A stretch of DNA of 64,000 nucleotides, taken from positions 124,001 through 188,000 of the forward strand of contig FOUN01000002.1 of NCBI GenBank assembly GCA_900114885.1, written 5' to 3'. The notes beneath the pieces are model-generated. The model saw nothing but the letters and a program-made list of their open reading frames with translations. It had not been told where the DNA came from and ran no database searches. Both the position numbers and the translations under genes were made by a program. The stretch comes from Psychrobacillus psychrodurans (GTDB taxonomy: Bacteria; Bacillota; Bacilli; Bacillales_A; Planococcaceae). This document shows positions 6,004-32,733 of the stretch, piece after piece. Positions within the stretch are counted from its first letter, which is position 1. Every line of letters starts with the position of its first letter.

Positions 6004-6250
6004 TAAAAAAACATCATGCATCCCTATAAAAGGGACGAATGATGTTAAATCCGTGGTACCACCCAGCTTGCTAAAATAATTAGCCACTCTTCTTCGTAAC
6101 GTGAAGGGGACGGTATATGCTACTTACTTTCACATATACTGCTCAGAAGCCCATTCCATTTAAAGTATGATCTGTTTGCAGCAACCACAGACTCTCTAAG
6201 CATACATAGGTAAATGTACTTTTCTTCCTCAAAGCTCATTATTTTGTTTT
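6004..6250 (-). promoter_or_regulatory. T-box leader of trpS
   Basis: Read on the minus strand, the leader contains the invariant T-box core (GGGTGGTACCACGG, about 6049-6065), followed by a terminator hairpin with a T run (about 6004-6046) that competes with the antiterminator. In stem I the likely specifier is UGG at 6151-6153, within GAATGGGC ahead of the conserved TTCTGAGC, matching tryptophan. The T-box class is established knowledge; specifier placement is read by eye. Confidence 0.93.
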
Positions 6251-19665: not shown

Positions 19666-19692
19666 TGTTTTATCTAATTTAATTACTGTAAG

Positions 19693-19740
19693 AAAAGAAT
19701 TCATTTTGATTACCATAATCAAAATGAATTCTTTTTTTTC
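19693..19740 (+). terminator. Very strong terminator hairpin
   Basis: Two perfectly complementary 20-bp arms (19693-19712 and 19716-19735) around a 3-base loop, followed by T8. It insulates the Pel locus from upstream transcription. Confidence 0.85.
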
Positions 19741-20004: not shown

Positions 20005-21333
20005 ATGGATATAAAAAGAAGTATATTTTCCTATCTAGCTATAAATGTGGCTATTATATTAGTTCTAATTAGTGCATATTCGTTTATTGCATTTACTATA
20101 CCAGCCAATGCAATAAGTTTAGAAAAAGACACTTTTTATGTATCTGAAAATGGAAATGATTCCAATGATGGGACAATAGATGCACCATGGAAAACAATTC
20201 AAAAAGCAGCAGATACACTGAACAATGGAGAAACTGTATATGTTCGGGGGGGAACATATTCAGAGTTTATTCATATTACAAACTCTGGTTCTAAAGAGGA
20301 AGGATTTATCTCTTTCAAAGCATTTCCAGGAGAACAACCAGTGCTAGATGGAAAAAATTTAGTATTAACAAGCGAAAACCGTGCATTATTTTTTATTGAA
20401 AATGCTAGTTACATTCTAATAGATGGTTTTGAAATCAGAAATTTAAGTACTTCGAATTCCGATAGATATCCTGCAGGGGTACTCGTTAAAGAAGGTAGCA
20501 GCAACATTCAACTCGTTAATAATAATGTACATCATATACAGAATAAATCACCAAATGGAAATGCACATGGTATTTTATTTTACGCTAATTCAGCTTACTC
20601 CATGTCCAATATTGTAATAAAAAACAATGATATTCACCATTTAACTCTTGGGAATAGTGAGGCACTTACACTCAGTGGAAACTTGGATGGTTTCACTATT
20701 ACTGAAAATACGATACATCACAACAATAATATTGGTATTGATGTAGCAGGGTTTTATGAAGCATGTACGATATCCAATTGTGTAGATCAAGTAAGAAATG
20801 GAACTATATCAAATAATAAAGTATATAACAACAGTTCTGGTAAAAATCCTGCGTATAATGGGAGCCACTCTGCAGGGGGGATATATGCGGATGGCTCAAC
20901 AGATATTGTGATTGAAAAGAATTTAATTTATAACAATGATTTTGGAATAGAACTTGCTAGTGAAAATTATGGGAAAAATACAGCCTATGTAACTGTAAAA
21001 GATAATATTATTTACAATAACAATGGCGCTGGAATAATCATTGGTGGGTCAAGTAAGAGTAACGGAGGAGCTTATAAAAATATCATAATTAATAATATTC
21101 TTAGTTTTAATGATCAATTAAATGCAGGCTTTGGTGAAATAACAATTCAAGCGAATGCATCTAAGAATCAATTTATCAATAATACAATTTACAGTAAAAA
21201 TAAAAACAAAACAATACAACAAAATGATAAGGAAGAGATTAGTAATTTATTTATAGGTAATCATATTTATTCATTTGAAAAACAACCTTCCTTGACAAAA
21301 ATAATTATAAACAAGTTAAAGAAAATTCGATGA
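20005..21333 (+). CDS. Exported right-handed beta-helix protein (DUF1565/pectate-lyase-like)
   Basis: A 442-residue protein with an N-terminal signal or anchor helix (about residues 9-33, ending PANA). The DUF1565 opening FYVSENGNDSNDGT, then PWKTIQKAADTL and YVRGGTY, leads into a parallel beta-helix of short repeats rich in Asn stacks (NNVHHI, NNDIHHL, ENTIHHN, NNKVYN, KNLIYNND, DNIIYNN). Such folds occur in polysaccharide lyases, epimerases and hydrolases. It is first in the exopolysaccharide operon, so a polymer-modifying enzyme acting outside the cell is likely by inference. No catalytic residues can be assigned by eye. Confidence 0.8.
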   Translation: MDIKRSIFSYLAINVAIILVLISAYSFIAFTIPANAISLEKDTFYVSENGNDSNDGTIDAPWKTIQKAADTLNNGETVYVRGGTYSEFIHITNSGSKEEGFISFKAFPGEQPVLDGKNLVLTSENRALFFIENASYILIDGFEIRNLSTSNSDRYPAGVLVKEGSSNIQLVNNNVHHIQNKSPNGNAHGILFYANSAYSMSNIVIKNNDIHHLTLGNSEALTLSGNLDGFTITENTIHHNNNIGIDVAGFYEACTISNCVDQVRNGTISNNKVYNNSSGKNPAYNGSHSAGGIYADGSTDIVIEKNLIYNNDFGIELASENYGKNTAYVTVKDNIIYNNNGAGIIIGGSSKSNGGAYKNIIINNILSFNDQLNAGFGEITIQANASKNQFINNTIYSKNKNKTIQQNDKEEISNLFIGNHIYSFEKQPSLTKIIINKLKKIR

Positions 21334-21381
21334 AATAATCAAGAATTGGAATCTAGTAATATATGATGGGAAGGTTTTGAG

Positions 21382-23556
21382 ATGAAAGTATTAATTACTG
21401 GTGGATATGGTTTTATTGGTTCTCATGTGGCGGACAGGTACTACAAAGAAGGTTATGAAGTTTTCATAATCGATGATTTATCAACAGGAAATAGAGAAAA
21501 TATAACATTTAAACACAAAGGTTATATACTTTCAGTTAAAGATCCAAAATGTGAGGAAATATTTAAGTCTTACCAATTTGATGTAGTTGTTCATTTAGCC
21601 GCTCAGGTAAGTGTCGCAATTTCGTTATTAAATCCTCGAGAAGATATAGAAACAAATGTAGTCGGACTAGTAAATATTTTAACACTTTCCCAAAGATATA
21701 AAGTGAAAAAATTCATTTTTGCTTCCTCCGCTGCTGTTTATGGTTTTAATGATCATCTTCCACTAAAAGAAGAAGAAATTAGTAAACCAATTTCCCCCTA
21801 TGGAATTAGTAAGTGGATGGGAGAAGAGTACTGCCAAAAGTGGAGAGAATTACATGACTTCGAGAGCGTTTGTTTTCGATTTTCTAATGTATATGGACCA
21901 AGACAAAGTAATGTTGGAGAAGGAGGAGTCATATCCATCTACTTGGATAGAATTATTAATAACCAACCACTAGATCTGTATGGAGATGGGGAGCAGACAA
22001 GAGATTTTATCTATGTAGAAGATGTCTCAGATGCTATTTTTAGAGCTTCTCATTCTACTATAGCAGGAATCTACAATCTTTCTACAAACACGGAAAATAG
22101 TATAAATAACATAATTGATAAGCTAAAGAACATTCATGGGGATATACGAACAAATAACTTATTAGCAAGAGAAGGAGATATTTATAAATCTGTTTTAAGT
22201 AACCAAAAAGTGATGGACGCACTTGATTGGAGTCCAATGTATGACATGGAAGCAGGTTTGGAACGCACGTATAGCTGGGCTCAAACGAAACAAGGTGAAA
22301 AAGAAAGCGCGGTAACTACTGTTCAAACAAAGAAAAAAATTCCGACTATCTATAAAAAAGTTCAACCCTATATTGAGAATTTGTTAGTTTTTTCAATTAT
22401 TTCTTGGCTCACCTTAACGAACCAGGTAAGTATTTTAGATATGATGGGTATAGGAATTTTTTACATTATGGTGATCGGCGTTATATACGGAAATAGACAA
22501 TCAATTATTGCAGTAGGACTATCTGTATGGTTACTTATTGTTGAAAAATTAATGGAGGGTAGGGAAATGGTTTCCTTATTGTATGATACTTCATTCTTTT
22601 TTCAATTAGCGCTATTTCTATTCGTTGGATTGGTAGTAGGCTACTCTACTCAACGAAAAAACAATATGCTTAGGGAGCAGAAGGCGAAAAGGGAAGAATT
22701 AGAGAACCGATATGAGTTTTTAAACGGAATTTATACGGAAATGAGAGAAGTAAAAGAAGAATTGCAATTACGTATGCTCAAGAGTGGAGATAGTTTTGGG
22801 AAAATCCATTCTATATTAAAAGAATTAGACGGTCTTGAGCCAGAAAAAGTATTTACTAAAACGGTTAACGTTGTGCAAACAATTATGAATGTAAAAAATG
22901 TCTCGATTTATATTTTAAATCAAAATAATACATTCCTAAGATTAATAGCGCATTCTAATGATTCTGAAATAAACCGAGTCAATTCCATAAAAGTGGAGGA
23001 GACAAAATACGTCGGCGGTATTTTAAGTAATGGAAAAGTTTTTGTTAATAAAGAACTTAATCCGAATATACCTTTAATGGCAGCGCCTATTTATCATCGT
23101 GATAGAATTGCAGCAATTATTACGATAAATGATCTCGACTTTGAGAGTTTTTCTCTTTATCATGAAAATTTATTTAAAGTAGTTTCAGAATTAGTGGAAT
23201 CTGCTTTAGGAAGGGCATTTAGCTATATAGAAGCAACGGAAAGGGACCGCTACGTACCTAACACTACTATTTTGAAGAATAACATATTCGAGGAAATCTT
23301 AATTAGCAAAAAAGAAGCGAAAGAAAAGCACAACACTCCTTTCCTATTATTAGAGGGGGTATACGATGAGAAGTCGATTAGCGAATACTCTAGAGAAATC
23401 ACGAGTCTACTCAGAGAAACGGATTATATCGGTCATAGTAAACACAATAATATACTTGTCCTTCTATCTAACACGACCAAACATGACGGGCAAACTGTAT
23501 TATCACGATTTGAGAAAAAAGGGTTCAGATTGAAACTGGTAGAGGGAGAGATATAA
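21382..23556 (+). CDS. GalE-like epimerase fused to PelD-like c-di-GMP receptor
   Basis: A 724-residue fusion. Residues 1-300 form an extended SDR sugar-nucleotide epimerase (TGGYGFIGSH, YGISK catalytic pair, RQSNVGEGG), likely making UDP-GalNAc or a related precursor. Residues about 333-425 hold four membrane helices, about 430-465 a charged coiled coil, about 480-610 a GAF domain, and the rest a degenerate GGDEF domain. RxxD (R678, D681) lies five residues before KHNNI, which replaces GGDEF: the I-site spacing is kept and the cyclase motif lost, as in PelD of Pseudomonas. It should bind c-di-GMP and activate the Pel synthase. The fusion itself is unusual. Confidence 0.85.
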   Translation: MKVLITGGYGFIGSHVADRYYKEGYEVFIIDDLSTGNRENITFKHKGYILSVKDPKCEEIFKSYQFDVVVHLAAQVSVAISLLNPREDIETNVVGLVNILTLSQRYKVKKFIFASSAAVYGFNDHLPLKEEEISKPISPYGISKWMGEEYCQKWRELHDFESVCFRFSNVYGPRQSNVGEGGVISIYLDRIINNQPLDLYGDGEQTRDFIYVEDVSDAIFRASHSTIAGIYNLSTNTENSINNIIDKLKNIHGDIRTNNLLAREGDIYKSVLSNQKVMDALDWSPMYDMEAGLERTYSWAQTKQGEKESAVTTVQTKKKIPTIYKKVQPYIENLLVFSIISWLTLTNQVSILDMMGIGIFYIMVIGVIYGNRQSIIAVGLSVWLLIVEKLMEGREMVSLLYDTSFFFQLALFLFVGLVVGYSTQRKNNMLREQKAKREELENRYEFLNGIYTEMREVKEELQLRMLKSGDSFGKIHSILKELDGLEPEKVFTKTVNVVQTIMNVKNVSIYILNQNNTFLRLIAHSNDSEINRVNSIKVEETKYVGGILSNGKVFVNKELNPNIPLMAAPIYHRDRIAAIITINDLDFESFSLYHENLFKVVSELVESALGRAFSYIEATERDRYVPNTTILKNNIFEEILISKKEAKEKHNTPFLLLEGVYDEKSISEYSREITSLLRETDYIGHSKHNNILVLLSNTTKHDGQTVLSRFEKKGFRLKLVEGEI

Positions 23557-23557
23557 A

Positions 23558-24475
23558 ATGATGTACTTTTACATGACGTATATCGTTTTATCAGGGCTTT
23601 TACTATTACTGATATCCAACAAGAATTTTAAAGAGTGGCTATTAAAAATGATGATTGTAACGTTTTTACCGGTAATTGGGTGGACATTACCAATTGTAAT
23701 TGCAAAAAAATTCATAAAAAATAAAGGAGAATTATTTGGCAGTTATATTAGTCAACAAGACGAGGACATATCATTAGAGATACTAGCAATTCAAGAAAAA
23801 ATAGATAAAGAAAGAGAACTAGATATTGTTCCAATTGAAGATGCTTTAGTAGTAAGTAACTACTCTACTAGAAGGAAAGTAATGATTGATGTATTAAAAG
23901 AAGACACATTGCAATACATGGACATATTAAAAACTGCAGTGCTGAATGAAGATACGGAGACTTCTCATTATGCTGTTACTGCGGTGATGGAGATAAAGAG
24001 AAAACTATCTATATCTATGCAAGAGCTTTCGGTAAAGTTTGACCAAGATAAGGAAGATGCTCATTTATCACTTGCATATGCACTAGTGTTAAAGGCGTAT
24101 ATGAAAAGTGGCTTTCTAGATGAGCAGACCATTAAAAAATATAAATATATTTATATACATGTGTTAAGTCAACTTATTCGAAATGGTAACGAGAACGAGG
24201 AAACGTTTCAAGAAAAAATAGAAACTGAAATGGAAATGAATGAATACTCTGCCGCAGAAACTACTTGCTATGAGTATTTACGTAAATATTCTAATTCGGA
24301 AGATCCTTATATTTGTTTATTGAAATTATATTATACAACTAAATCTACAATAAAAATGCAAGGTACATTGGATGAACTGAAGAAATCGACCATTAAGCTT
24401 TCCAATCGAGCACTTACTATTGTTAGGTATTGGTCGGGGGGAATGGGACATGAGAGACAAAGGGAACTTCTCTAA
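23558..24475 (+). CDS. pelE: PelE-like membrane protein
   Basis: A 305-residue protein with two N-terminal membrane helices (about residues 4-20 and 28-48) and a cytoplasmic helical region of repeated paired helices consistent with TPR-like folds (AVLNEDTETSHYAVTAVMEIK, EMNEYSAAETTCYEYLRKY). Length, topology and position between the PelD-like and PelA-like genes match PelE, the scaffold that links PelD to the synthase in known Pel systems. The start follows the upstream stop by one base. It overlaps the next gene by 26 bases. Confidence 0.75.
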   Translation: MMYFYMTYIVLSGLLLLLISNKNFKEWLLKMMIVTFLPVIGWTLPIVIAKKFIKNKGELFGSYISQQDEDISLEILAIQEKIDKERELDIVPIEDALVVSNYSTRRKVMIDVLKEDTLQYMDILKTAVLNEDTETSHYAVTAVMEIKRKLSISMQELSVKFDQDKEDAHLSLAYALVLKAYMKSGFLDEQTIKKYKYIYIHVLSQLIRNGNENEETFQEKIETEMEMNEYSAAETTCYEYLRKYSNSEDPYICLLKLYYTTKSTIKMQGTLDELKKSTIKLSNRALTIVRYWSGGMGHERQRELL

Positions 24476-26285
24476 AAAAATATACATCATTATTTTATTT
24501 ATATTGCTGTTTGGTGTGTTATTACAGATTTCACGATCGCAATTCGTCTTGAAATTTCAACAAAATCAAAACTTGGTTGAACAAAGAGATAAAATTCTAG
24601 CAGACATTTCCCATGACAATATCGTAGAGAAAAGTGGAGAAAACTACTGTATTTTATATAATTCATCGGATGAATATAGCGCAAAGTTGAAAGATAATGC
24701 GTACCACTCACTGCAATATATGAAAAAGAAATCAAACGAAGTGGATATAACGCAAGAAATGGTCAATTTATCGAACTGCCAAGTAGTTATACTGGCAACG
24801 GACAAGCTAAAAGATATTGGCAAGGCTGAGGAAATTGAGCAATTCGTATTCGAAGGGGGACATATCTTTTTTATGTCCGTCTTAGATATAGAGACAGATT
24901 ATCAAATTTTATATCGCAAATTTGGTATCTCTTCTTTTGATAGTATTGTTGATGCTAAAGGAATGCATTTAACTTCCAATGTACTAATAGGAGAAAAGGA
25001 ACTTTTTATAGACGAGGACTTTATCCATAACTCTGCTATAAGTGTGGATCTAGACGTTGAAACAGAGTTATTAGCGGAAAGTGCCAATAACATACCACTA
25101 TTATGGAAAAGTGAATATGGAAAAGGAGCTTTTATGACGTTCAACGGAGAAATGCTGCAAGAAAAGATAAACCGCGGATTTTTTGCAGGGGCATTAAGTT
25201 TACTGGAACCAAACTTTATATACTCTATTTTCAATTTGAAAGTATTTTACATCGATGATTTTCCTTCTCCGATAGCAAAAGGGACTATCCCAGTTATTTA
25301 CGAAGAATATAGAAGAGACATTGCTTCTTTTTACCAAGAAATATGGTGGCCGAATATGCTGGAAACTTCCAAAAAACACGACCTGAGATATACAGGTGCG
25401 ATTATCGAATCATACAATGATCGAGTGCAACCCCCATTTAATAATACAGAAGATAAAGATAGCCATTACCTTATTTCCTTTGGTCGTGAGCTTATTAAAA
25501 GTGGAGGAGAACTGGGTTTTCATGGATATAACCATCAATCTCTCGTACTTGATAAAAATGTTGCAGCCGAATTTGGATATAAAGAATGGGATAAAAAAGA
25601 GGATATGTCTAAGTCTATAGAGGAACTTCTTATTTATACGAAGGACGCATTTCCTGGTTATACAGTTACTTCTTATGTACCACCTTCTAATGTTCTTTCT
25701 CCTGAAGGAAGGGAAGCGATGAAGAAGGCATGGTCGGACTTAACGGTGATTTCCTCATTGTATGGAGAGGATGAAACTGGACTAGCTTATGTTCAAGAAT
25801 TTGAAATTGCAGAAGATGGGATTATTGAAATGCCTCGAGTTACCTCTGGTTATTTTGAAACAGAATATAATCGCTGGGCTGAAGCAAATACGATGACTGG
25901 AGTTGGTGTGTTTTCCCACTTTGTTCACCCTGATGATGTCATAAGCAGTGACAGAAGTAATAATATGGGGTGGAAAGAAAACTATAAGCTATACGACAAA
26001 TACATGTCCCGTGTGCATAAGACATATCCTTGGGTTCGTGCTTTGCCTGCTACGGAAGCATCGCTAGATATGGCTACAAATCTTTATACTCAAGTAAGCT
26101 GGAAAAATAATGAAAACAGTATTGAAGGAAAGATATCTAACTATAAATCAAAAACATCCTATATCTTAAGATCAGAAAGAAAAATTGGACGATTACACAA
26201 TTGTACGGTTAAGAAAATAGATGATAGTACTTACTTAGTAACTGCGAACGACTCTAAATTCAAAATAGAATTGGGGGGGAACTAG
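24450..26285 (+). CDS. pelA: PelA-type polysaccharide deacetylase (DUF2194)
   Basis: A 611-residue membrane-anchored enzyme: one N-terminal helix (about residues 8-28), an amidotransferase-like domain (QFVFEGGHIFFMSV), then a CE4-like deacetylase domain with YIDDFPSP (D269, D270) and HGYNH (H358, H362), the expected metal and base residues. Family members N-deacetylate the Pel polymer. ATG 24450 is preferred to an upstream frame at 24420 because GGGGGGAA at 24435-24442 precedes it. Unlike Pseudomonas PelA, no glycoside hydrolase domain is visible; that matches what is known of Gram-positive PelA. Confidence 0.85.
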   Translation: MRDKGNFSKKIYIIILFILLFGVLLQISRSQFVLKFQQNQNLVEQRDKILADISHDNIVEKSGENYCILYNSSDEYSAKLKDNAYHSLQYMKKKSNEVDITQEMVNLSNCQVVILATDKLKDIGKAEEIEQFVFEGGHIFFMSVLDIETDYQILYRKFGISSFDSIVDAKGMHLTSNVLIGEKELFIDEDFIHNSAISVDLDVETELLAESANNIPLLWKSEYGKGAFMTFNGEMLQEKINRGFFAGALSLLEPNFIYSIFNLKVFYIDDFPSPIAKGTIPVIYEEYRRDIASFYQEIWWPNMLETSKKHDLRYTGAIIESYNDRVQPPFNNTEDKDSHYLISFGRELIKSGGELGFHGYNHQSLVLDKNVAAEFGYKEWDKKEDMSKSIEELLIYTKDAFPGYTVTSYVPPSNVLSPEGREAMKKAWSDLTVISSLYGEDETGLAYVQEFEIAEDGIIEMPRVTSGYFETEYNRWAEANTMTGVGVFSHFVHPDDVISSDRSNNMGWKENYKLYDKYMSRVHKTYPWVRALPATEASLDMATNLYTQVSWKNNENSIEGKISNYKSKTSYILRSERKIGRLHNCTVKKIDDSTYLVTANDSKFKIELGGN

Positions 26286-26286
26286 A

Positions 26287-27699
26287 ATGAGAATCTGTTT
26301 GATAGCAGAAGGCTCATATCCTTATGTTACAGGTGGGGTATCTAGCTGGATTCATAGTCTAATCACAGAAATGCAAGAACATGAATTTATCGTGTATGCC
26401 ATTGGAGCAGAAACAAAACAAAAAGGGAAATTCCGGTACGAATTGCCCCCGAACTTAGTAGAGGTTAAAGAAATCTTTTTGGATGAATATTTATTCGAAG
26501 AGAAACGATGGGGAAAACGGTATAACCTATCTACAAGTGAACGGAATAATCTCGTTTCACTTGTGAACGGGAGTAACGAGGTTAATTGGAAAGAACTATT
26601 TGATTTAATAAAAAGTAATAAGTTCGAAAATGTCGGAGAATTTTTGTCTAGTAAAGATTATTTTGACCTAGTAGAGTATTTAGGGAAAAATGAATACAGT
26701 CAAGTTCCTTTTACAGAACTATTCTGGACAGTAAATTCTATGATCTTACCCCTATTTTTAACCATTCGCCATGAAGTTCCAAAAGCGGATATATATCATT
26801 CTGTATCTACTGGGTATGCAGGAGTAGTAGGGGCACTTGCAAAGTGTTTATACGATAAGCCACTCCTATTAACGGAACATGGTATATATTCGCGCGAAAG
26901 AGAAGAAGAAATTATAAAGGCGGATTGGGTCAAAGGATATTTCAAAGATTTATGGATCAACTACTTCTATACATTATCCAATTCTATTTATGAGACTTCT
27001 GACAAAGTAATAACATTGTTCAATAGAAATAAAGAAATAGAAATAGAATTAGGGTGTCCAGAAGACAAAATCCTCATTATTCCAAATGGTGTGGATGTCA
27101 TAAATTATAGTAATCTATTGAAAGCTCCTGACGATGGGATCATCCGAATAGGAGCCATCGTTCGAGTGGTGCCGATTAAGGACATTAAAACGATGATTCA
27201 AAGCTTTGCGCTAGTGGAAAGAGAAGTACCAAATGTTGAATTATTCATTATGGGGCCAGCCGATGAAGATGATGCTTACTATGAAGAGTGCATACAATTG
27301 GTGGATGCTTTAGGTGTAAGTAAGGTTACTTTTACTGGAATGGTACAGGTGAAAGAATATGTCGGTCAAATGGATATTCTGATGTTGACAAGTATTAGTG
27401 AAGGACAACCATTAGCAATCTTAGAGGGCTTGGCAAGCTCCAAACCTTTTGTATGTACAAATGTTGGTGGTTGTAGAGAATTGATCAATGGTAGTGGGGA
27501 CGCTGATTTTGGTAAGGCTGGTTTCATAGCACCGGTTATGCACTATGAGGAGATTGCAAATTACGTCATCCAATTATGCCAGGATGCAAACTTAAGAGAA
27601 AAAATGGGCGTAAACGGGTTTAATCGTGTAAAAAATAAATACAAACGAAGCGAATTTATTGCAGCTTACAGGAATTTGTATCAATCGGTAGGAGGGTAA
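26287..27699 (+). CDS. pelF: Pel polysaccharide glycosyltransferase PelF
   Basis: Cytoplasmic GT4 glycosyltransferase that polymerises the Pel backbone from UDP-sugar. The 470-residue product opens with the PelF hallmark (CLIAEGSYPYVTGGVSSWIH), contains LLTEHGIYSREREEEI, the donor-site IPNGVD, and the GT4 C-terminal E-x7-E region SEGQPLAILEGLAS. It begins one base after the pelA stop and is followed within 5 bases by pelG. It is the most clearly recognisable member of the locus. Confidence 0.95.
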   Translation: MRICLIAEGSYPYVTGGVSSWIHSLITEMQEHEFIVYAIGAETKQKGKFRYELPPNLVEVKEIFLDEYLFEEKRWGKRYNLSTSERNNLVSLVNGSNEVNWKELFDLIKSNKFENVGEFLSSKDYFDLVEYLGKNEYSQVPFTELFWTVNSMILPLFLTIRHEVPKADIYHSVSTGYAGVVGALAKCLYDKPLLLTEHGIYSREREEEIIKADWVKGYFKDLWINYFYTLSNSIYETSDKVITLFNRNKEIEIELGCPEDKILIIPNGVDVINYSNLLKAPDDGIIRIGAIVRVVPIKDIKTMIQSFALVEREVPNVELFIMGPADEDDAYYEECIQLVDALGVSKVTFTGMVQVKEYVGQMDILMLTSISEGQPLAILEGLASSKPFVCTNVGGCRELINGSGDADFGKAGFIAPVMHYEEIANYVIQLCQDANLREKMGVNGFNRVKNKYKRSEFIAAYRNLYQSVGG

Positions 27700-27704
27700 A
27701 TAGA

Positions 27705-30700
27705 ATGGCTGGTATAGGTTTTGAACTACGAAAATTATATAGAGAAGAAGGAATTCTTCAAAATATGAAAGCTTATGCATATTCTTCCTTGACAACGATT
27801 GGTCCAATGATCTTATGTATAATTTTAGTGTTTGTCCAACAAAATATGATGTTAGCAAATGGCAGTAGATTTATAGAAAATGAATTATTCATCTCCACAA
27901 TGACGTATTGTTTCATTTTTTCAATCGTTTTGACTTCAGGTCTTTCAATGGTTTTAACTAGATTCATCGCAGATATGATTTATCAAAAAAAATATGAAGA
28001 AATTATCTCCTCTTTTTATGGAGCGTTGATTACCATTTTGCCTATTGGAGGAATTATTACTGGTATTTTTCTATATGGAGTGGAAGAAAGTATCGGATAT
28101 AAAATAGCTGCGTATTTGTTTTTTATAGAACTAATCATTATTTGGATTCAAGGAGTGTATTTATCAGCACTTAAAGATTATAAGCGGATCGTCCGGGGTT
28201 TTGCAATCGGGGTATTGGCCACTATTATTGTAAGCTATATCTTATTCCAATTTACAACATTTAGCGCAACAACAATCTCTTTAGTTGGAATGGATATTGG
28301 ATTTGCAATTATTGTAGGTTCAGCAATGTATCATTTTGAACAAGTATTCCCACGAAATGAACAAAGGAACTACTTTTCATTTATGCGTTACTTTCAAAAA
28401 TATCCTACTGTCTTTTTTAGCGGTTTGTTTGTCTATGCAGGCGTATATGTCCATAACTTTGTTTACTGGTTTTTCTCAGATGATCATTTAATAGTTTCAG
28501 AGAAATTTAAACTGATGCCCTTTTATGATTTACCGGTCTTTTATGCGTATATTTCAGTGGTCCCTTCTCTTGTCATGTTTGTCGTAATAGTAGAAACAGA
28601 TTTCTATGAACGTTTCTTAAACTATTATAAAAACGTAATAGATGGTGGCACATATAAAAGTATGAATATCGCAAAGAAAAAAATGCAAGATGTATTGTTG
28701 CATCGCATCGGTTTTTTAGTAGAAGTACAGCTTCTTTTTACAGCTTTATCTATAGCAATTGGTATTATTTTTCTACCAAAAGTCGGATTTTCGATGGAAC
28801 AATTAGATTTGTTTATTTTATTATGTCTTGCGTATTTTTTCTTTATTATTATGTTTGTCATACTACATGCGCTAATGTATTTTGATGACCAGAAAGGCGT
28901 GTTAGTTATTAGTGCATTATTTTTTTGTTTAAATGGTATTTTAACTTATACCAGCATGAAAATAGGAATAAAAGGACTTGGAATGTTCGTGGCGTCTTTC
29001 ATAGTTTTAATACTAACAATTGGGAGATTAATATACGTCCTATCTAATATTGATTACTATACGTTCTGTTCGCAACCATTAAGCACACATAAGAAACAGA
29101 GAAAAACATATTTCTCATTCTCTAAAATTGTCACGACGCTAGCTATTATTGTCACCTCAAGCTTCATTTTGGTTGGTTGTTCACCGACAAAAGAAAGCAT
29201 AGAGTATACCGAAAAAGTGGAGGAGAAGGCGGAAGTACAGGAAGAAAACAATGAAAAATTAGTGGAAGATAAAAGATTGTATGAACGTGATGAAGATGGT
29301 TCTATCAAGTCATTATATATTACAGTTTTACCTGATGATAAGGAACAACTAGATTGGTATTCTTTAAATCGTATAACGGACCGATATAGTGAAGAAAAAA
29401 TGGATATTATTTTTGCGGAAGGTACAGAGGATGGTAAAGGGTCAAACGAAGGTATGTTTGGCAATGGTGCTGTGGATGCTAATGCGAAAATTAGTCTAAG
29501 AGGTAACACTTCCCGTTATGCTGCTCAAAAGTCATACAAGATTAAGTTGTTTGATACAGCTGGTTTGTGGCAAAATCAGCGGACTATTAATCTAAATAAA
29601 CATATTGGTGATTTAAGCCGAGTTCGAAATAAGCTAAGTTTTGATTTGATGGAGAATATGTCTAATATGACAAGCCTGCGAACGCAATTTGTACATTTAT
29701 ATGTGAAAGACTTATCTGATGGGAAAACTGAAGCATTTCAAGATTATGGTTTGTATACCCAAGTAGAACAACCGAACGAAATGTTTTTAAAAAATCACTG
29801 GTTAGATCCAAGTGGTAACTTATACAAAGTCACTTTTTTTGAGTTTCAAAGATATCCAAATGAAATTAAATCGCAAACAGACCCAACATACGATAAAAAA
29901 ATATTTGAAACGATTCTAGAGATAAAGGGAAGAGAAGAGCATGACAAGCTAATCTCAATGTTGGATGACGTCAACAATATGGCAATGCCGATTGAGGAAG
30001 TAATGGAAAAGCATTTTGATTTGGATAACTTTTTAACATGGACCGCAACGAATATTCTAATGGACAATATGGATACAGACGCCAACAACTTCTATCTATA
30101 TTCACCGTTAAACTCCGATAAATGGTTCATCCTACCATGGGATTATGATGGAGCATGGGAATTACAGAGAAATGAGAATTCTATAAGGCCATACCAAGCT
30201 GGTTTAAGTAACTTTTGGGGAAACACGTTGCATAATCGTTATTTCCGAAATGAAAAAAATGTTCAACAACTAATCGACAAAGTGGAGGAACTATCTAAAA
30301 CAATCAATTCGAAAACAGTCGAAGCACAGTTAAATCAATATGCTGATTTAGTAAAACCTTTCCTGTATAGGGAGCCAGATATTCAATACCTACCAGATTT
30401 GAATACTAATTTTGAAGCGGACTTACAGTTGTTGAAAGATACACCTGAAAGAGCAAAACAAAGGTTTTATGAAGATATTGAAAAGCCGAAACCATTTTAC
30501 ACAGACGATGTCGTCGTTACGGATACGGAGTTATTATTCTCTTGGCAAATTTCTTTTGATCTTCAACAAGAAGATCTTTTTTACACAGTGACTGTCGCTC
30601 GTGATCCATTATTCACAGAAATCTTAGAAGTAAAAAAAGATTTCCGCGAAAATGAATTTAAAATGAAAAAGCCGGAGAATGGTCAATATTACTGGAAAGT

Positions 30701-30803
30701 CACTGTAGTAGACAGTGAAGGAAACGAACAAACATCCTTTGATATGCATATTGATGAGGAAGGAAACGAGTACTTTGGAATAAGGGATTTTAAGGTGGAA
30801 TAA
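27705..30803 (+). CDS. pelG: PelG membrane transporter fused to CotH kinase domain
   Basis: A 1032-residue fusion. Residues 1 to about 460 are PelG (MAGIGFELRKL opening, about 12 membrane helices), the flippase-like partner of PelF. A basic stretch then leads into a helix ending in a lipobox-like LVGC (C492), i.e. a lipoprotein signal now internal. Residues about 525-900 are a CotH-type kinase fold (KISLRGNTSR, LYTQVEQP, and ILPWDYDG with D813 and D815). The last 100 residues resemble a fibronectin-type domain. There is no in-frame ATG, GTG or TTG with a ribosome site just before the lipobox, so this reads as a true fusion. Confidence 0.85.
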   Translation: MAGIGFELRKLYREEGILQNMKAYAYSSLTTIGPMILCIILVFVQQNMMLANGSRFIENELFISTMTYCFIFSIVLTSGLSMVLTRFIADMIYQKKYEEIISSFYGALITILPIGGIITGIFLYGVEESIGYKIAAYLFFIELIIIWIQGVYLSALKDYKRIVRGFAIGVLATIIVSYILFQFTTFSATTISLVGMDIGFAIIVGSAMYHFEQVFPRNEQRNYFSFMRYFQKYPTVFFSGLFVYAGVYVHNFVYWFFSDDHLIVSEKFKLMPFYDLPVFYAYISVVPSLVMFVVIVETDFYERFLNYYKNVIDGGTYKSMNIAKKKMQDVLLHRIGFLVEVQLLFTALSIAIGIIFLPKVGFSMEQLDLFILLCLAYFFFIIMFVILHALMYFDDQKGVLVISALFFCLNGILTYTSMKIGIKGLGMFVASFIVLILTIGRLIYVLSNIDYYTFCSQPLSTHKKQRKTYFSFSKIVTTLAIIVTSSFILVGCSPTKESIEYTEKVEEKAEVQEENNEKLVEDKRLYERDEDGSIKSLYITVLPDDKEQLDWYSLNRITDRYSEEKMDIIFAEGTEDGKGSNEGMFGNGAVDANAKISLRGNTSRYAAQKSYKIKLFDTAGLWQNQRTINLNKHIGDLSRVRNKLSFDLMENMSNMTSLRTQFVHLYVKDLSDGKTEAFQDYGLYTQVEQPNEMFLKNHWLDPSGNLYKVTFFEFQRYPNEIKSQTDPTYDKKIFETILEIKGREEHDKLISMLDDVNNMAMPIEEVMEKHFDLDNFLTWTATNILMDNMDTDANNFYLYSPLNSDKWFILPWDYDGAWELQRNENSIRPYQAGLSNFWGNTLHNRYFRNEKNVQQLIDKVEELSKTINSKTVEAQLNQYADLVKPFLYREPDIQYLPDLNTNFEADLQLLKDTPERAKQRFYEDIEKPKPFYTDDVVVTDTELLFSWQISFDLQQEDLFYTVTVARDPLFTEILEVKKDFRENEFKMKKPENGQYYWKVTVVDSEGNEQTSFDMHIDEEGNEYFGIRDFKVE

Positions 30804-30804
30804 T

Positions 30805-31512
30805 ATGAATTTACACGATAAAAGATTTAGACATGAGTTGAAATATTATTTGCATATATTTGACTACCTTTCACTTCGACAAAAGGTTTCATCTGTTCTA
30901 ACAATAGATAAGAATTCACAAACGCATGAAGGATATGGCATACGTAGCTTGTATTTTGACGGAATACATAATCACTCTCTCTATGATAAAAACAATGGTG
31001 TGTTTAATAGGGAAAAGTACCGTATACGTATTTATAATGGAAGCGATCAAAAAATTAGTTTAGAGAGAAAAAGTAAGTTTGGAGATTTTATTTCGAAGGA
31101 ATCAGCGCCAGTGACACGTGCTGAATACGATGCTATTTTAAAAGGAAATATAGATGTTTTATCTGGTAAGGATCAGCCTTTAATAAAAGAGTTTTATGCA
31201 GCTTTAAAGTATCGAAATTTTCTTCCTACCGTAATTGTAGACTATGTCCGGGAAGCTTATGTATATGAACTGGGAAATGTACGTATTACGTTTGATAAAA
31301 AAATGTCAGCAGGAGTTAATACGATTGATTTATTTGATCCAAACTTGATGCTAGAAGAGCCTCTCTTACCAGAGCAGACGATTTTAGAAGTCAAATTCGA
31401 TCAATTCCTTCCAGATAATATACGTCAATTAGTGCAACCAGAAAGATTTGTTCGCTCTGCTATATCTAAGTACGTTATATGCAGAGAAGAGAATATAAAA
31501 CATTTTAAATAA
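30805..31512 (+). CDS. VTC-domain protein (polyphosphate polymerase-like)
   Basis: A 235-residue protein matching the VTC domain of the CYTH/triphosphate-tunnel superfamily: RHELKYYL near residue 9, IRSLYFD, REKYRIRIYNG, SLERKSK, a later arginine-bearing VDYVREAY, and ILEVKFD near residue 193. These basic and acidic residues line the tunnel in family members that bind triphosphate or make polyphosphate. It has no signal or membrane helix, so it is cytoplasmic. It follows pelG-cotH by one base. Whether it makes polyphosphate here is unknown. Confidence 0.85.
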   Translation: MNLHDKRFRHELKYYLHIFDYLSLRQKVSSVLTIDKNSQTHEGYGIRSLYFDGIHNHSLYDKNNGVFNREKYRIRIYNGSDQKISLERKSKFGDFISKESAPVTRAEYDAILKGNIDVLSGKDQPLIKEFYAALKYRNFLPTVIVDYVREAYVYELGNVRITFDKKMSAGVNTIDLFDPNLMLEEPLLPEQTILEVKFDQFLPDNIRQLVQPERFVRSAISKYVICREENIKHFK

Positions 31513-31536
31513 TAGGTTCTTTTAAGGGGAATAAAT

Positions 31537-32217
31537 ATGAATGATACAATTAACTTTCAAGATGTGATAAAAAAAAGTGTACTTCATCTGGAAGCATTTC
31601 GAAGCGTCTCCTATATTGATATATTTTTAGGGTTAGCATGTTCATTTGCAATTGGCATGTTCATTTATTTTGTCTATAAAAGATATTTTCGTGGAGTTGT
31701 TTACAGTTACAATTACAATGTTTCTTTCGTATTAATGACGATGATCACAACATTAATCATCATGACGATAAGTACAAATATTATTTTATCACTAGGGATG
31801 GTCGGAGCACTGAGTATTGTCCGATTTAGAACTGCGGTAAAAGACCCATTAGATATCGTATACATGTTTTGGGCAATAGCGGCAGGAATCGCAACGGGTG
31901 CCAAAATGTATCCATTAGCAATGATAGGTTCATTGGCTTTTGGCTTGACGCTAGCATGGCTTTCTAAAAAGAAAGTTAAACACCAAGCCTATTTATTGGT
32001 TATCAGACATACAGAAGAGGCAACTGATGACCTAAGAGTGCAATTAAGAAAACTTGATACAAAACTTAAATCGAAGTCAATCAGAAATAGTTTCACGGAA
32101 TTAACTGTAGAAATTAGCTTACGTGACGATAATACTGCATTTATGAAAACAATTGATAACATAAAGGGAATAGAATCATGCTCTTTAGTTAACTATACTG
32201 GCGACTATGCACAATAA
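31537..32217 (+). CDS. DUF4956 family membrane protein
   Basis: A 226-residue protein with predicted membrane helices at about residues 27-48, 63-88 and 105-145, including the conserved LGMVGALSIVRFRTAVKDP motif of DUF4956, followed by a cytoplasmic C-terminal domain of about 80 residues with ferredoxin-like alternation. DUF4956 genes commonly neighbour VTC and CotH genes; the function is not established. It is the last gene of the Pel locus and is followed by a hairpin. Confidence 0.85.
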   Translation: MNDTINFQDVIKKSVLHLEAFRSVSYIDIFLGLACSFAIGMFIYFVYKRYFRGVVYSYNYNVSFVLMTMITTLIIMTISTNIILSLGMVGALSIVRFRTAVKDPLDIVYMFWAIAAGIATGAKMYPLAMIGSLAFGLTLAWLSKKKVKHQAYLLVIRHTEEATDDLRVQLRKLDTKLKSKSIRNSFTELTVEISLRDDNTAFMKTIDNIKGIESCSLVNYTGDYAQ

Positions 32218-32694: not shown

Positions 32695-32733
32695 AAACAA
32701 CAGCCTATCTTTCGTTCAGATAGGCTGTTGTTT
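32695..32733 (-). terminator. Terminator of spxH
   Basis: A perfect 16-bp stem (AAACAACAGCCTATCT and complement) with a 7-base loop; symmetric enough to act in both directions. Confidence 0.85.

Follow-up and report, generated by a model that had tools for sequence, protein, structure and literature searches.

Gram-positive pel operons in which PelD is of an epimerase type were described by Whitfield et al. in 2020 (PMC7112168). The portion of that paper available to us also reports a contiguous group of genes for CotH, a polyphosphate polymerase and a DUF4956 protein in streptococci and clostridia, with a variant in bifidobacteria. In Streptococcus intermedius, accessory genes beside pel were deleted in a 2025 study (PMC12345266, likewise available in part). 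The CotH-type and DUF4956-type mutants had aggregation cut by more than half in one medium, the Pel level being lower in the former and higher in the latter; all four accessory-gene mutants still aggregated. The presence of CotH, VTC and DUF4956 genes beside pel is already published in these two papers. Here we analyze an operon of this kind in a 64,000-nucleotide stretch of the Psychrobacillus psychrodurans genome (contig FOUN01000002.1, positions 124,001 to 188,000; hereafter, the window). Two features go beyond the published association: a conserved internal lipobox in an open reading frame (ORF) that joins PelG to CotH, and the occurrence of VTC and DUF4956 genes, often together with CotH, mostly without Pel.

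The operon resembles those of PMC7112168 in its core genes, in the trio of genes downstream and in the epimerase domain on PelD; it resembles S. intermedius SIR_1591-1594 (PMC12345266) in having CotH-, VTC- and DUF4956-type genes beside pel. In S. intermedius, however, these are separate genes, and in the streptococci, clostridia and bifidobacteria of PMC7112168 CotH is a gene product of its own, whereas here it is fused to PelG. The epimerase motifs of PelD, reported to be altered in those groups and intact in Brevibacillus, are intact here. Also at variance with the operons of that paper, a beta-helix gene leads the operon and the genome has no GH114 match. The fused ORF, which scores 419 bits for PelG and 214 bits for CotH, is made up as follows.

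27705..30803, + strand: PelG-CotH fused ORF, 1032 residues (PF16933 over residues 1-454, PF08757 over residues 596-912)
27705..29066, + strand: PelG exporter domain, residues 1-454 (PF16933)
29091..29180, + strand: predicted internal type II signal peptide, with basic stretch, hydrophobic core and lipobox LVGC (Cys492 at 29178-29180)
29490..30440, + strand: CotH kinase-fold domain, with Asp codons at 30072 (D790) and 30141 (D813) (PF08757; 5JD9 alignment; conservation)

A search of 200 genomes of the family yielded 22 pel loci with PelG over the cut-off (three matches below it, L024-L026, were dropped); PelG and CotH form a single ORF in 17 of them. The same is true of 18 of the 79 named loci carrying a PelG label, taken from the best 80 of 562 relatives. 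Three of these 18 repeat family loci, giving 32 unique fused loci in total; such recurrence rules out an assembly or frameshift artefact as the cause of the fusion. Within the best 80 relatives, the fused loci belong to Psychrobacillus, Rummeliibacillus, Solibacillus, Brevibacillus invocatus, 13 Paenibacillus records and one Lachnospiraceae metagenome-assembled genome, and the nearest named PelG is that of Psychrobacillus vulpis (86% identity over PelG). The remaining 61 named loci comprise 31 with a separate PelG and all three accessory genes, 24 with none of the three and 6 with a partial set. L247, lacking a PelG label, was excluded from these counts, and L212-L214, L232 and L259 were dropped as repeats of family loci. 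Because the profiles used to label loci were seeded with window or fetched-locus sequences, weak relatives will have been missed. In a tree of 106 PelGs, 31 fused proteins form one clade (Shimodaira-Hasegawa-like approximate likelihood ratio test, SH-aLRT, 100) whose sister group has a separate, lipobox-type CotH in five cases out of five; the remaining fused protein, L288, represents a second, separate origin. None of the 19 records in a plasmid search had a full-length fused relative. At two loci, L142 and L146, a tandem copy of CotH, encoded separately and bearing a lipobox of its own, comes after the fused gene.

A basic n-region, a hydrophobic core and a lipobox lie at the junction of all 32 fused proteins, the net charge before the core ranging from +3 to +8. 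The lipobox Cys is present in 32/32; it follows Ala or Gly at -1 in 31 proteins and Ser in the other, and -3 is Leu, Met or Ile throughout. With the tree computed from PelG columns alone, no change maps to the Cys column within the 31-member clade; the other 56 linker columns undergo 4-23 (median 16), the lowest being -3 and -1 with 4 changes each. Two Fusobacteriaceae PelGs, from Propionigenium maris (L277) and Cetobacterium somerae (L295), are joined via a lipobox to unrelated repeats. These proteins (L277 and L295:8001-10112; 909 and 703 residues, respectively) carry an internal lipobox followed by a Gly/Tyr/Asp-rich repeat domain and, to judge from this layout, repeat the exporter-lipobox architecture without CotH. 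No paper on an internal lipobox or an exporter-lipoprotein polyprotein was found in the literature searched, in which subscription journals are scarce, and the available portions of the Pel papers are silent on the fusion.

The CotH domain aligns, Asp pair included, to another CotH of known structure (5JD9; E 2.3e-15, fragment residues 107-422). D790 and D813 are 23 residues apart, as are D228 and D251 of Bacillus subtilis CotH, which have been tied to kinase function (PMC7821199, available in part); alignment and spacing together lead us to equate the two pairs. The position of D790 is Asp in 77 and that of D813 in 80 of 81 Pel-linked CotHs, the corresponding figures for the other 55 being 55 and 54. 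Phosphoryl transfer to Pel or to an anchor is plausible and fits these kept residues. Unlike in the spore kinase, the domain here follows a lipobox within the same polypeptide as an exporter, and spore-coat context is absent. A lysine aligned with K609 is K or R in 81/81 Pel-linked CotHs and K in 10/55 others, although the alignment may be unsure at this point; the aligned residue is Tyr in 37 of the 55 non-Pel proteins (L058-L203). This difference suggests that Pel-linked and non-Pel CotHs may differ in activity.

Because the junction has the makings of an internal lipoprotein signal peptide, we infer that PelG-CotH is cut and lipidated at Cys492 and that CotH acts at the exporter exit, a reading of this Pel operon that we consider probable, with some reserve. 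Epimerase-PelD, PelE, PelF and PelG would make a polymer, by analogy a GalNAc-rich Pel, and move it across the membrane, and PelA, by homology to studied Pel systems, would deacetylate it outside; the operon is of the kind in which PelD has a putative c-di-GMP I-site. Exporter and kinase-fold protein would be translated as one chain. Lgt and signal peptidase II would lipidate and cleave this chain at Cys492, separating PelG from a CotH that is held by its lipid on the outer surface, next to where the exporter opens. Being fused, CotH is physically linked to the exporter and made in the same dose, which would place an accessory kinase where the polymer emerges. There CotH might modify an anchor, a matrix protein or the polymer itself, with altered Pel retention as the outcome; the changed Pel level and aggregation of the S. 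intermedius CotH-type and DUF4956-type mutants agree with this. VTC, presumably cytosolic, and DUF4956, in the membrane, are almost always paired and would have entered pel along with CotH. The signal lies at about residues 463-492 of the 1032-residue ORF, away from the N-terminal position typical of bacterial lipoproteins, and the window has no in-frame start there; hence the claim is that the segment works like a lipoprotein signal, and not that the protein is an ordinary lipoprotein.

Several observations weigh against this reading. Among separate CotHs, those without a recognized lipobox (22 rows) are as common as those with one (17), by a rough pattern that misses some cases (L229) and admits at least one doubtful one (L238); lipidation of CotH therefore appears dispensable in general. 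By a simple hydropathy scan, PelG has 11 segments ahead of the junction, which, taken literally, puts the end of PelG outside. PelG is expected to have a 12-helix topology, and it is on this, together with the basic stretch, that the orientation of the junction rests. Four of the 81 Pel-linked CotHs have another residue or a gap in place of D790, and CotH would sit outside the cell, where there is no obvious supply of ATP. Fusion, lipobox conservation, catalytic residues, operon structure and the VTC-DUF4956 pairing can be read from the sequences; cleavage and lipidation are deduced from the make-up of the junction; a catalytic activity of CotH, its substrate and a link to VTC and DUF4956 are putative in the same way. 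Finally, L288 has a plausible internal start, and the available text of PMC12345266 reports no aggregation effect for deletion of the VTC-type gene of S. intermedius.

Conceivably, the fusion is permanent and uncut, the junction being a plain transmembrane tether and the lipobox a relic of an ancestral lipoprotein CotH. This is unlikely, although the many separate pel-locus CotHs that have a signal-anchor and no recognized lipobox indicate that a plain tether is compatible with function; on the PelG tree the lipobox and no-lipobox labels of the separate CotHs are scattered (10 and 11 changes, all transitions counted). A relic would be expected to decay, yet all 31 clade members retain the Cys while the other linker columns vary, and the same type of junction recurs outside that clade, in L288 and in the two Fusobacteriaceae PelGs. 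The unbroken Cys argues that processing itself is kept in the fused proteins, a tether being tolerated where the genes are separate. We give very little credence to the alternative that translation of CotH begins at an internal start of its own, the fusion being only apparent. Some in-frame ATG, GTG or TTG does lie between C-45 and C-12 in 21 of the 32 fused ORFs, that of L288 following AGGAG, and a few ORFs have a purine-rich sequence before start codons outside this interval. Such codons are, however, absent in 11/32, including the window, and a Shine-Dalgarno-like sequence accompanies the internal start in 1/32 (L288) versus 20/24 separate lipobox-CotH genes of pel loci. These counts leave rare starts such as ATT unscored, and starts nearer than C-12 or beyond C-45 uncounted. 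Cleavage and lipidation at Cys492 thus remain the preferred account of the junction.

Downstream of the fused gene lie the other two members of the trio.

30805..31512, + strand: VTC-domain (polyphosphate polymerase-like) protein, 235 residues, no hydrophobic segment (PF09359, 124 bits)
31537..32217, + strand: DUF4956 membrane protein, ACT-like domain modeled at the C-terminus, 226 residues (PF16316, 46 bits, cut-off 30.6; model and fold comparison)

A preliminary description of the locus had regarded CotH, VTC and DUF4956 as additions to the Pel core, travelling with it and coupled to its function, and had proposed co-occurrence with pel as a test. Within the family, the proposal holds up well. 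DUF4956 occurs in 91 of the 200 genomes, including all 22 with PelG over the cut-off (22/22 versus 69/178 PelG-negative genomes, Fisher p 6e-9), and CotH, VTC and DUF4956 lie directly 3' of PelG in all 22 pel loci. The whole order PelD-PelE-PelA-PelF-PelG-CotH-VTC-DUF4956, with the fusion allowed for, is common to these 22 loci, and a chance gene order can be dismissed on that ground. Across the phylum (398 genomes, E 0.001) such a link did not emerge. DUF4956 is found in 64 genomes (62 over the cut-off) and VTC in exactly the same 64. CotH, found in 56, occurs in 50 of the 64, and 46 of those 50 lack a PelG over the cut-off. Of the 13 genomes with PelG over the cut-off, 4 have DUF4956, compared to 60 of the other 385 (p 0.14, not significant). 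The trio is thus tightly linked to pel in the family but not across the phylum, where it occurs mostly without Pel. Among 14 named control genomes, Corynebacterium glutamicum and Methanosarcina acetivorans match all three accessory families but not PelG.

Gene neighborhoods convey the same picture. All 74 phylum loci besides the window were fetched, of 75 DUF4956 matches; 73 received a VTC or DUF4956 label, L129 receiving none although the Pfam models match there. CotH lies within 6 kb of DUF4956 in 39 loci, of which 2 have Pel and 37 do not; a Cthe_2159-type protein (family identified by Pfam in 5 representatives) is near 24, neither partner near 10, and one is unlabeled. More than 6 kb is available on both sides in 25 of the 37 CotH loci without Pel, whereas in the others a contig end or the limit of the fetched region comes closer; contig ends cannot explain the missing Pel, since 46 genomes have the trio families and no PelG over the cut-off anywhere. 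Eight of the 10 phylum genomes with PelG over the cut-off and no adjacent trio were fetched as well, as were 52 of the 83 non-Pel DUF4956 matches of the family (83 being the DUF4956 rows minus the 22 in pel loci). A same-strand VTC lies within 400 bp of 65/70 labeled DUF4956 genes, and likewise in 51/51 non-Pel family loci and in 22/22 pel loci.

The available text of PMC12345266 states that the gene arrangement is not found outside pel. Here many loci have the trio clustered in the absence of pel, most often as VTC-DUF4956-CotH (31 phylum and 12 family loci). The order seen in pel, CotH-VTC-DUF4956, occurs without pel in 0/74 phylum and 3/52 family loci (L179, L191, L194) and on one plasmid, the Pseudobutyrivibrio plasmid pNP95 (L293), where it is part of a polysaccharide cluster. 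The published statement is thus borne out, with few exceptions, for the strict order, but not for the trio regardless of order. With the same reservation, a trio acting as a Pel-specific machine was rejected, given the 37/74 loci that have the cluster without Pel. On a tree of 181 VTC-DUF4956 pairs, the 66 Pel-linked ones require 2 changes, and CotH-type and Cthe_2159 partners 10; we read this as a portable VTC-DUF4956-CotH module that was probably acquired by pel loci on one or two occasions and retained thereafter. The P. psychrodurans genome itself has a second VTC-DUF4956 pair (L103; G000:C20:43000-54725), accompanied not by CotH or Pel but by an OmpR-type two-component system and a Cthe_2159-type protein. 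Family loci L152-L157, L161 and L163-L170 have the pair with neither CotH nor Cthe_2159 nearby.

Other surroundings of the cluster also involve polysaccharide-type enzymes. A Planococcus maritimus plasmid carries genes for VTC, DUF4956, CotH, a 689-residue protein, a HEAT protein and a glycosyltransferase; L083 and L172 have the same order with GT2/chitin-synthase-like enzymes, and L083 the HEAT protein too. In the Clostridium perfringens NELoc-2 table (PMC2879425, available in part), VTC, CotH, HEAT and "chitin synthase" genes follow in a row. The plasmid and NELoc-2 share with the window the placement of CotH and VTC beside a polysaccharide-type glycosyltransferase; the enzyme of L083 and L172, in contrast, is a GT2 of chitin-synthase type and not PelF/PelG.

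A profile of 33 VTC relatives matches Vtc4 structures (E 6.5e-15). R73, R75, E87, K89, R149, R160, E195, K197 and K222 of the window protein are invariant in 71/71 Pel-linked VTCs, and 116-118 of the 118 remaining VTCs retain them. The residues aligned with R73 and R75 in a Vtc4 chain are R267 and R269, taken, with a three-residue offset, as R264 and R266 of PMC9911596. E195, K197 and K222, which fall outside the printed Vtc4 alignment, presumably correspond to further Vtc4 sites. From these conserved active-site positions the protein is predicted to be polyphosphate polymerase-like. The yeast VTC complex (Vtc4) has the same VTC/TTM domain, with the aligned active-site residues conserved here; the window protein, in contrast, has 235 residues and no added domains, and its constant neighbor is DUF4956, possibly MgtC-like, not the yeast membrane subunits. 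VTC is not the sole candidate polyphosphate maker, as the genome also encodes PPK1; a PPK2 match is absent from it. As modeled, DUF4956 consists of five longer helices and, at the C-terminus, an ACT-like domain (mean predicted local distance difference test score, pLDDT, 76.6; predicted template modeling score, pTM, 0.58). Sequence comparison of DUF4956 with the PDB gave no meaningful match, and the fold matches cover only approximately residues 144-224, an ACT/ferredoxin-like region common to MgtC, NikR, elongation factors and others. The modeled protein may be MgtC-like, with the qualification that MgtC is one of many tied matches to the C-terminal domain and that the membrane part is barely reached.

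How VTC and DUF4956 might bear on CotH can be pictured in two ways that differ from modification at the exporter exit as outlined above. VTC and DUF4956 might make and translocate polyphosphate, as in yeast, for an extracytoplasmic CotH to use as phosphoryl donor. The attraction of the idea is that CotH sits outside the cell, where ATP is scarce. The invariance of the positions aligned with the catalytic Arg pair of Vtc4 and the identity of the VTC and DUF4956 genome sets also agree with it, as does the coupling of polyphosphate synthesis to translocation by yeast VTC (PMC9911596, available in part). It nevertheless seems quite improbable: DUF4956, if anything, resembles MgtC and not a known channel, and CotH uses ATP in vitro (PMC7821199). 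As a general rule, a polyphosphate donor is also hard to square with the S. intermedius VTC result, with a genome that encodes PPK1 and with the 24/74 loci that have a Cthe_2159-type protein in place of CotH. Alternatively, CotH, VTC and DUF4956 may be regulators of Pel output, through protein phosphorylation or phosphate sensing, rather than modifiers. A regulator role was proposed for CotH in PMC7112168, and the opposite effects of the DUF4956-type and CotH-type deletions on Pel in S. intermedius, the ACT-like domain of the DUF4956 model and the OmpR-type two-component systems near 32/74 phylum and 32/52 non-Pel family pairs could all be so explained. We regard this as possible but on balance not likely: such a system is near only 1/22 family pel loci, and CotH, held outside the membrane by a lipobox or signal-anchor, would be away from cytosolic regulators.

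The remaining genes of the operon are the following.

20005..21333, + strand: beta-helix protein with N-terminal signal-like segment, 442 residues (PF13229, 41 bits; right-handed beta-helix)
21382..23556, + strand: epimerase-PelD fusion with a short-chain dehydrogenase/reductase (SDR) domain, UDP-sugar 4-epimerase-like, 724 residues (PF01370, 195 bits; GAF weak)
23558..24475, + strand: PelE candidate, 305 residues, two N-terminal hydrophobic segments (position; window-seeded profile)
24420..26285, + strand: PelA deacetylase-type protein, DUF2194 (PF09960, 517 bits; DUF2334, 41 bits; Polysacc_deac_1 below cut-off)
26287..27699, + strand: PelF glycosyltransferase, GT4 (NF038011, 381 bits, cut-off 100)

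Together with the fused gene, VTC and DUF4956, these make up the eight co-directional + strand ORFs, spanning 20005-32217 in the window ORF list, that the preliminary description had taken for a monoderm Pel operon. The Pfam and NCBIfam profiles with which gene families were assigned bear this out: judged by these matches, the operon belongs to the Gram-positive pel operons with an epimerase-type PelD. As in pelDEADAFG operons of Gram-positive bacteria, a GT4 PelF adjoins the PelG exporter and a PelA protein with a deacetylase domain is present. Intergenic distances are, in order, 48, 1, -56, 1, 5, 1 and 24 bp, in agreement with the earlier observation of gaps of mostly 1-50 bp, narrowing to 1-5 bp from pelA to the VTC gene (1, 5 and 1 bp). 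The overlap of pelE and pelA, also noted before, measures 56 bp from the listed TTG (24420) and 26 bp from an internal ATG at 24450, the more likely start of PelA. PelD has three hydrophobic segments, a GAF match just under the cut-off (22.0 versus 22.4), intact GGYGFIG and YGISK motifs and an I-site-like RETD followed by a degenerate GGDEF position, apparent by motif although PelD gave no GGDEF Pfam match. These motifs are read in part as described in PMC7112168. The epimerase motifs are kept in 22/22 family PelDs and the RxxD pattern in 21/22. With transmembrane segments, GAF and a degenerate GGDEF with I-site RxxD all found, c-di-GMP binding is predicted. The PelE candidate, which has no Pfam or NCBIfam match, is conserved in position and by the window-seeded profile in 22/22 family pel loci.

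The beta-helix profile matches in 15/22 family pel loci and in 21/106 PelG loci, 20 of the 21 being fused. A GH114 relative is found in 23/106; the two occur together only in L249 (p 0.04). A GH114 hydrolase was discarded as a candidate in the P. psychrodurans genome, which has no match. The beta-helix protein is a candidate Pel-acting or matrix protein and may, as a lead only, be a stand-in for a Pel hydrolase.

Terminator-like hairpins flank the operon.

19692..19736, + strand: terminator-like hairpin between the preceding gene and the operon, 20-pair stem followed by a T-run (pattern match only)
32695..32733, + strand: terminator-like hairpin 3' of the operon, 16-pair stem (pattern match only)

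Single hairpins of this sort are weak evidence, because the scan of the window found 9 such sites where 5.4 were expected; a promoter scan of the window was uninformative (59 matches, 62.6 expected). No Rfam family lies inside the operon at gathering score, and riboswitch control of pel was rejected on this basis. A T-box leader (6028-6241, - strand, 144.7 bits) lies outside the operon.

Taken jointly, the ideas considered here would define a class of exporter-lipoprotein polyproteins split by signal peptidase II, in which polyphosphate from VTC and DUF4956 feeds a tethered kinase that phosphorylates Pel or its anchor; as a whole, this combination is a long shot. The conserved internal lipobox would mean, if it acts as proposed, that one ORF gives rise to both an exporter and a lipoprotein. 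The portable VTC-DUF4956-CotH cluster, in which CotH is often replaced by a Cthe_2159-type protein, suggests that the trio is best studied as a general surface module and not as a part of Pel.

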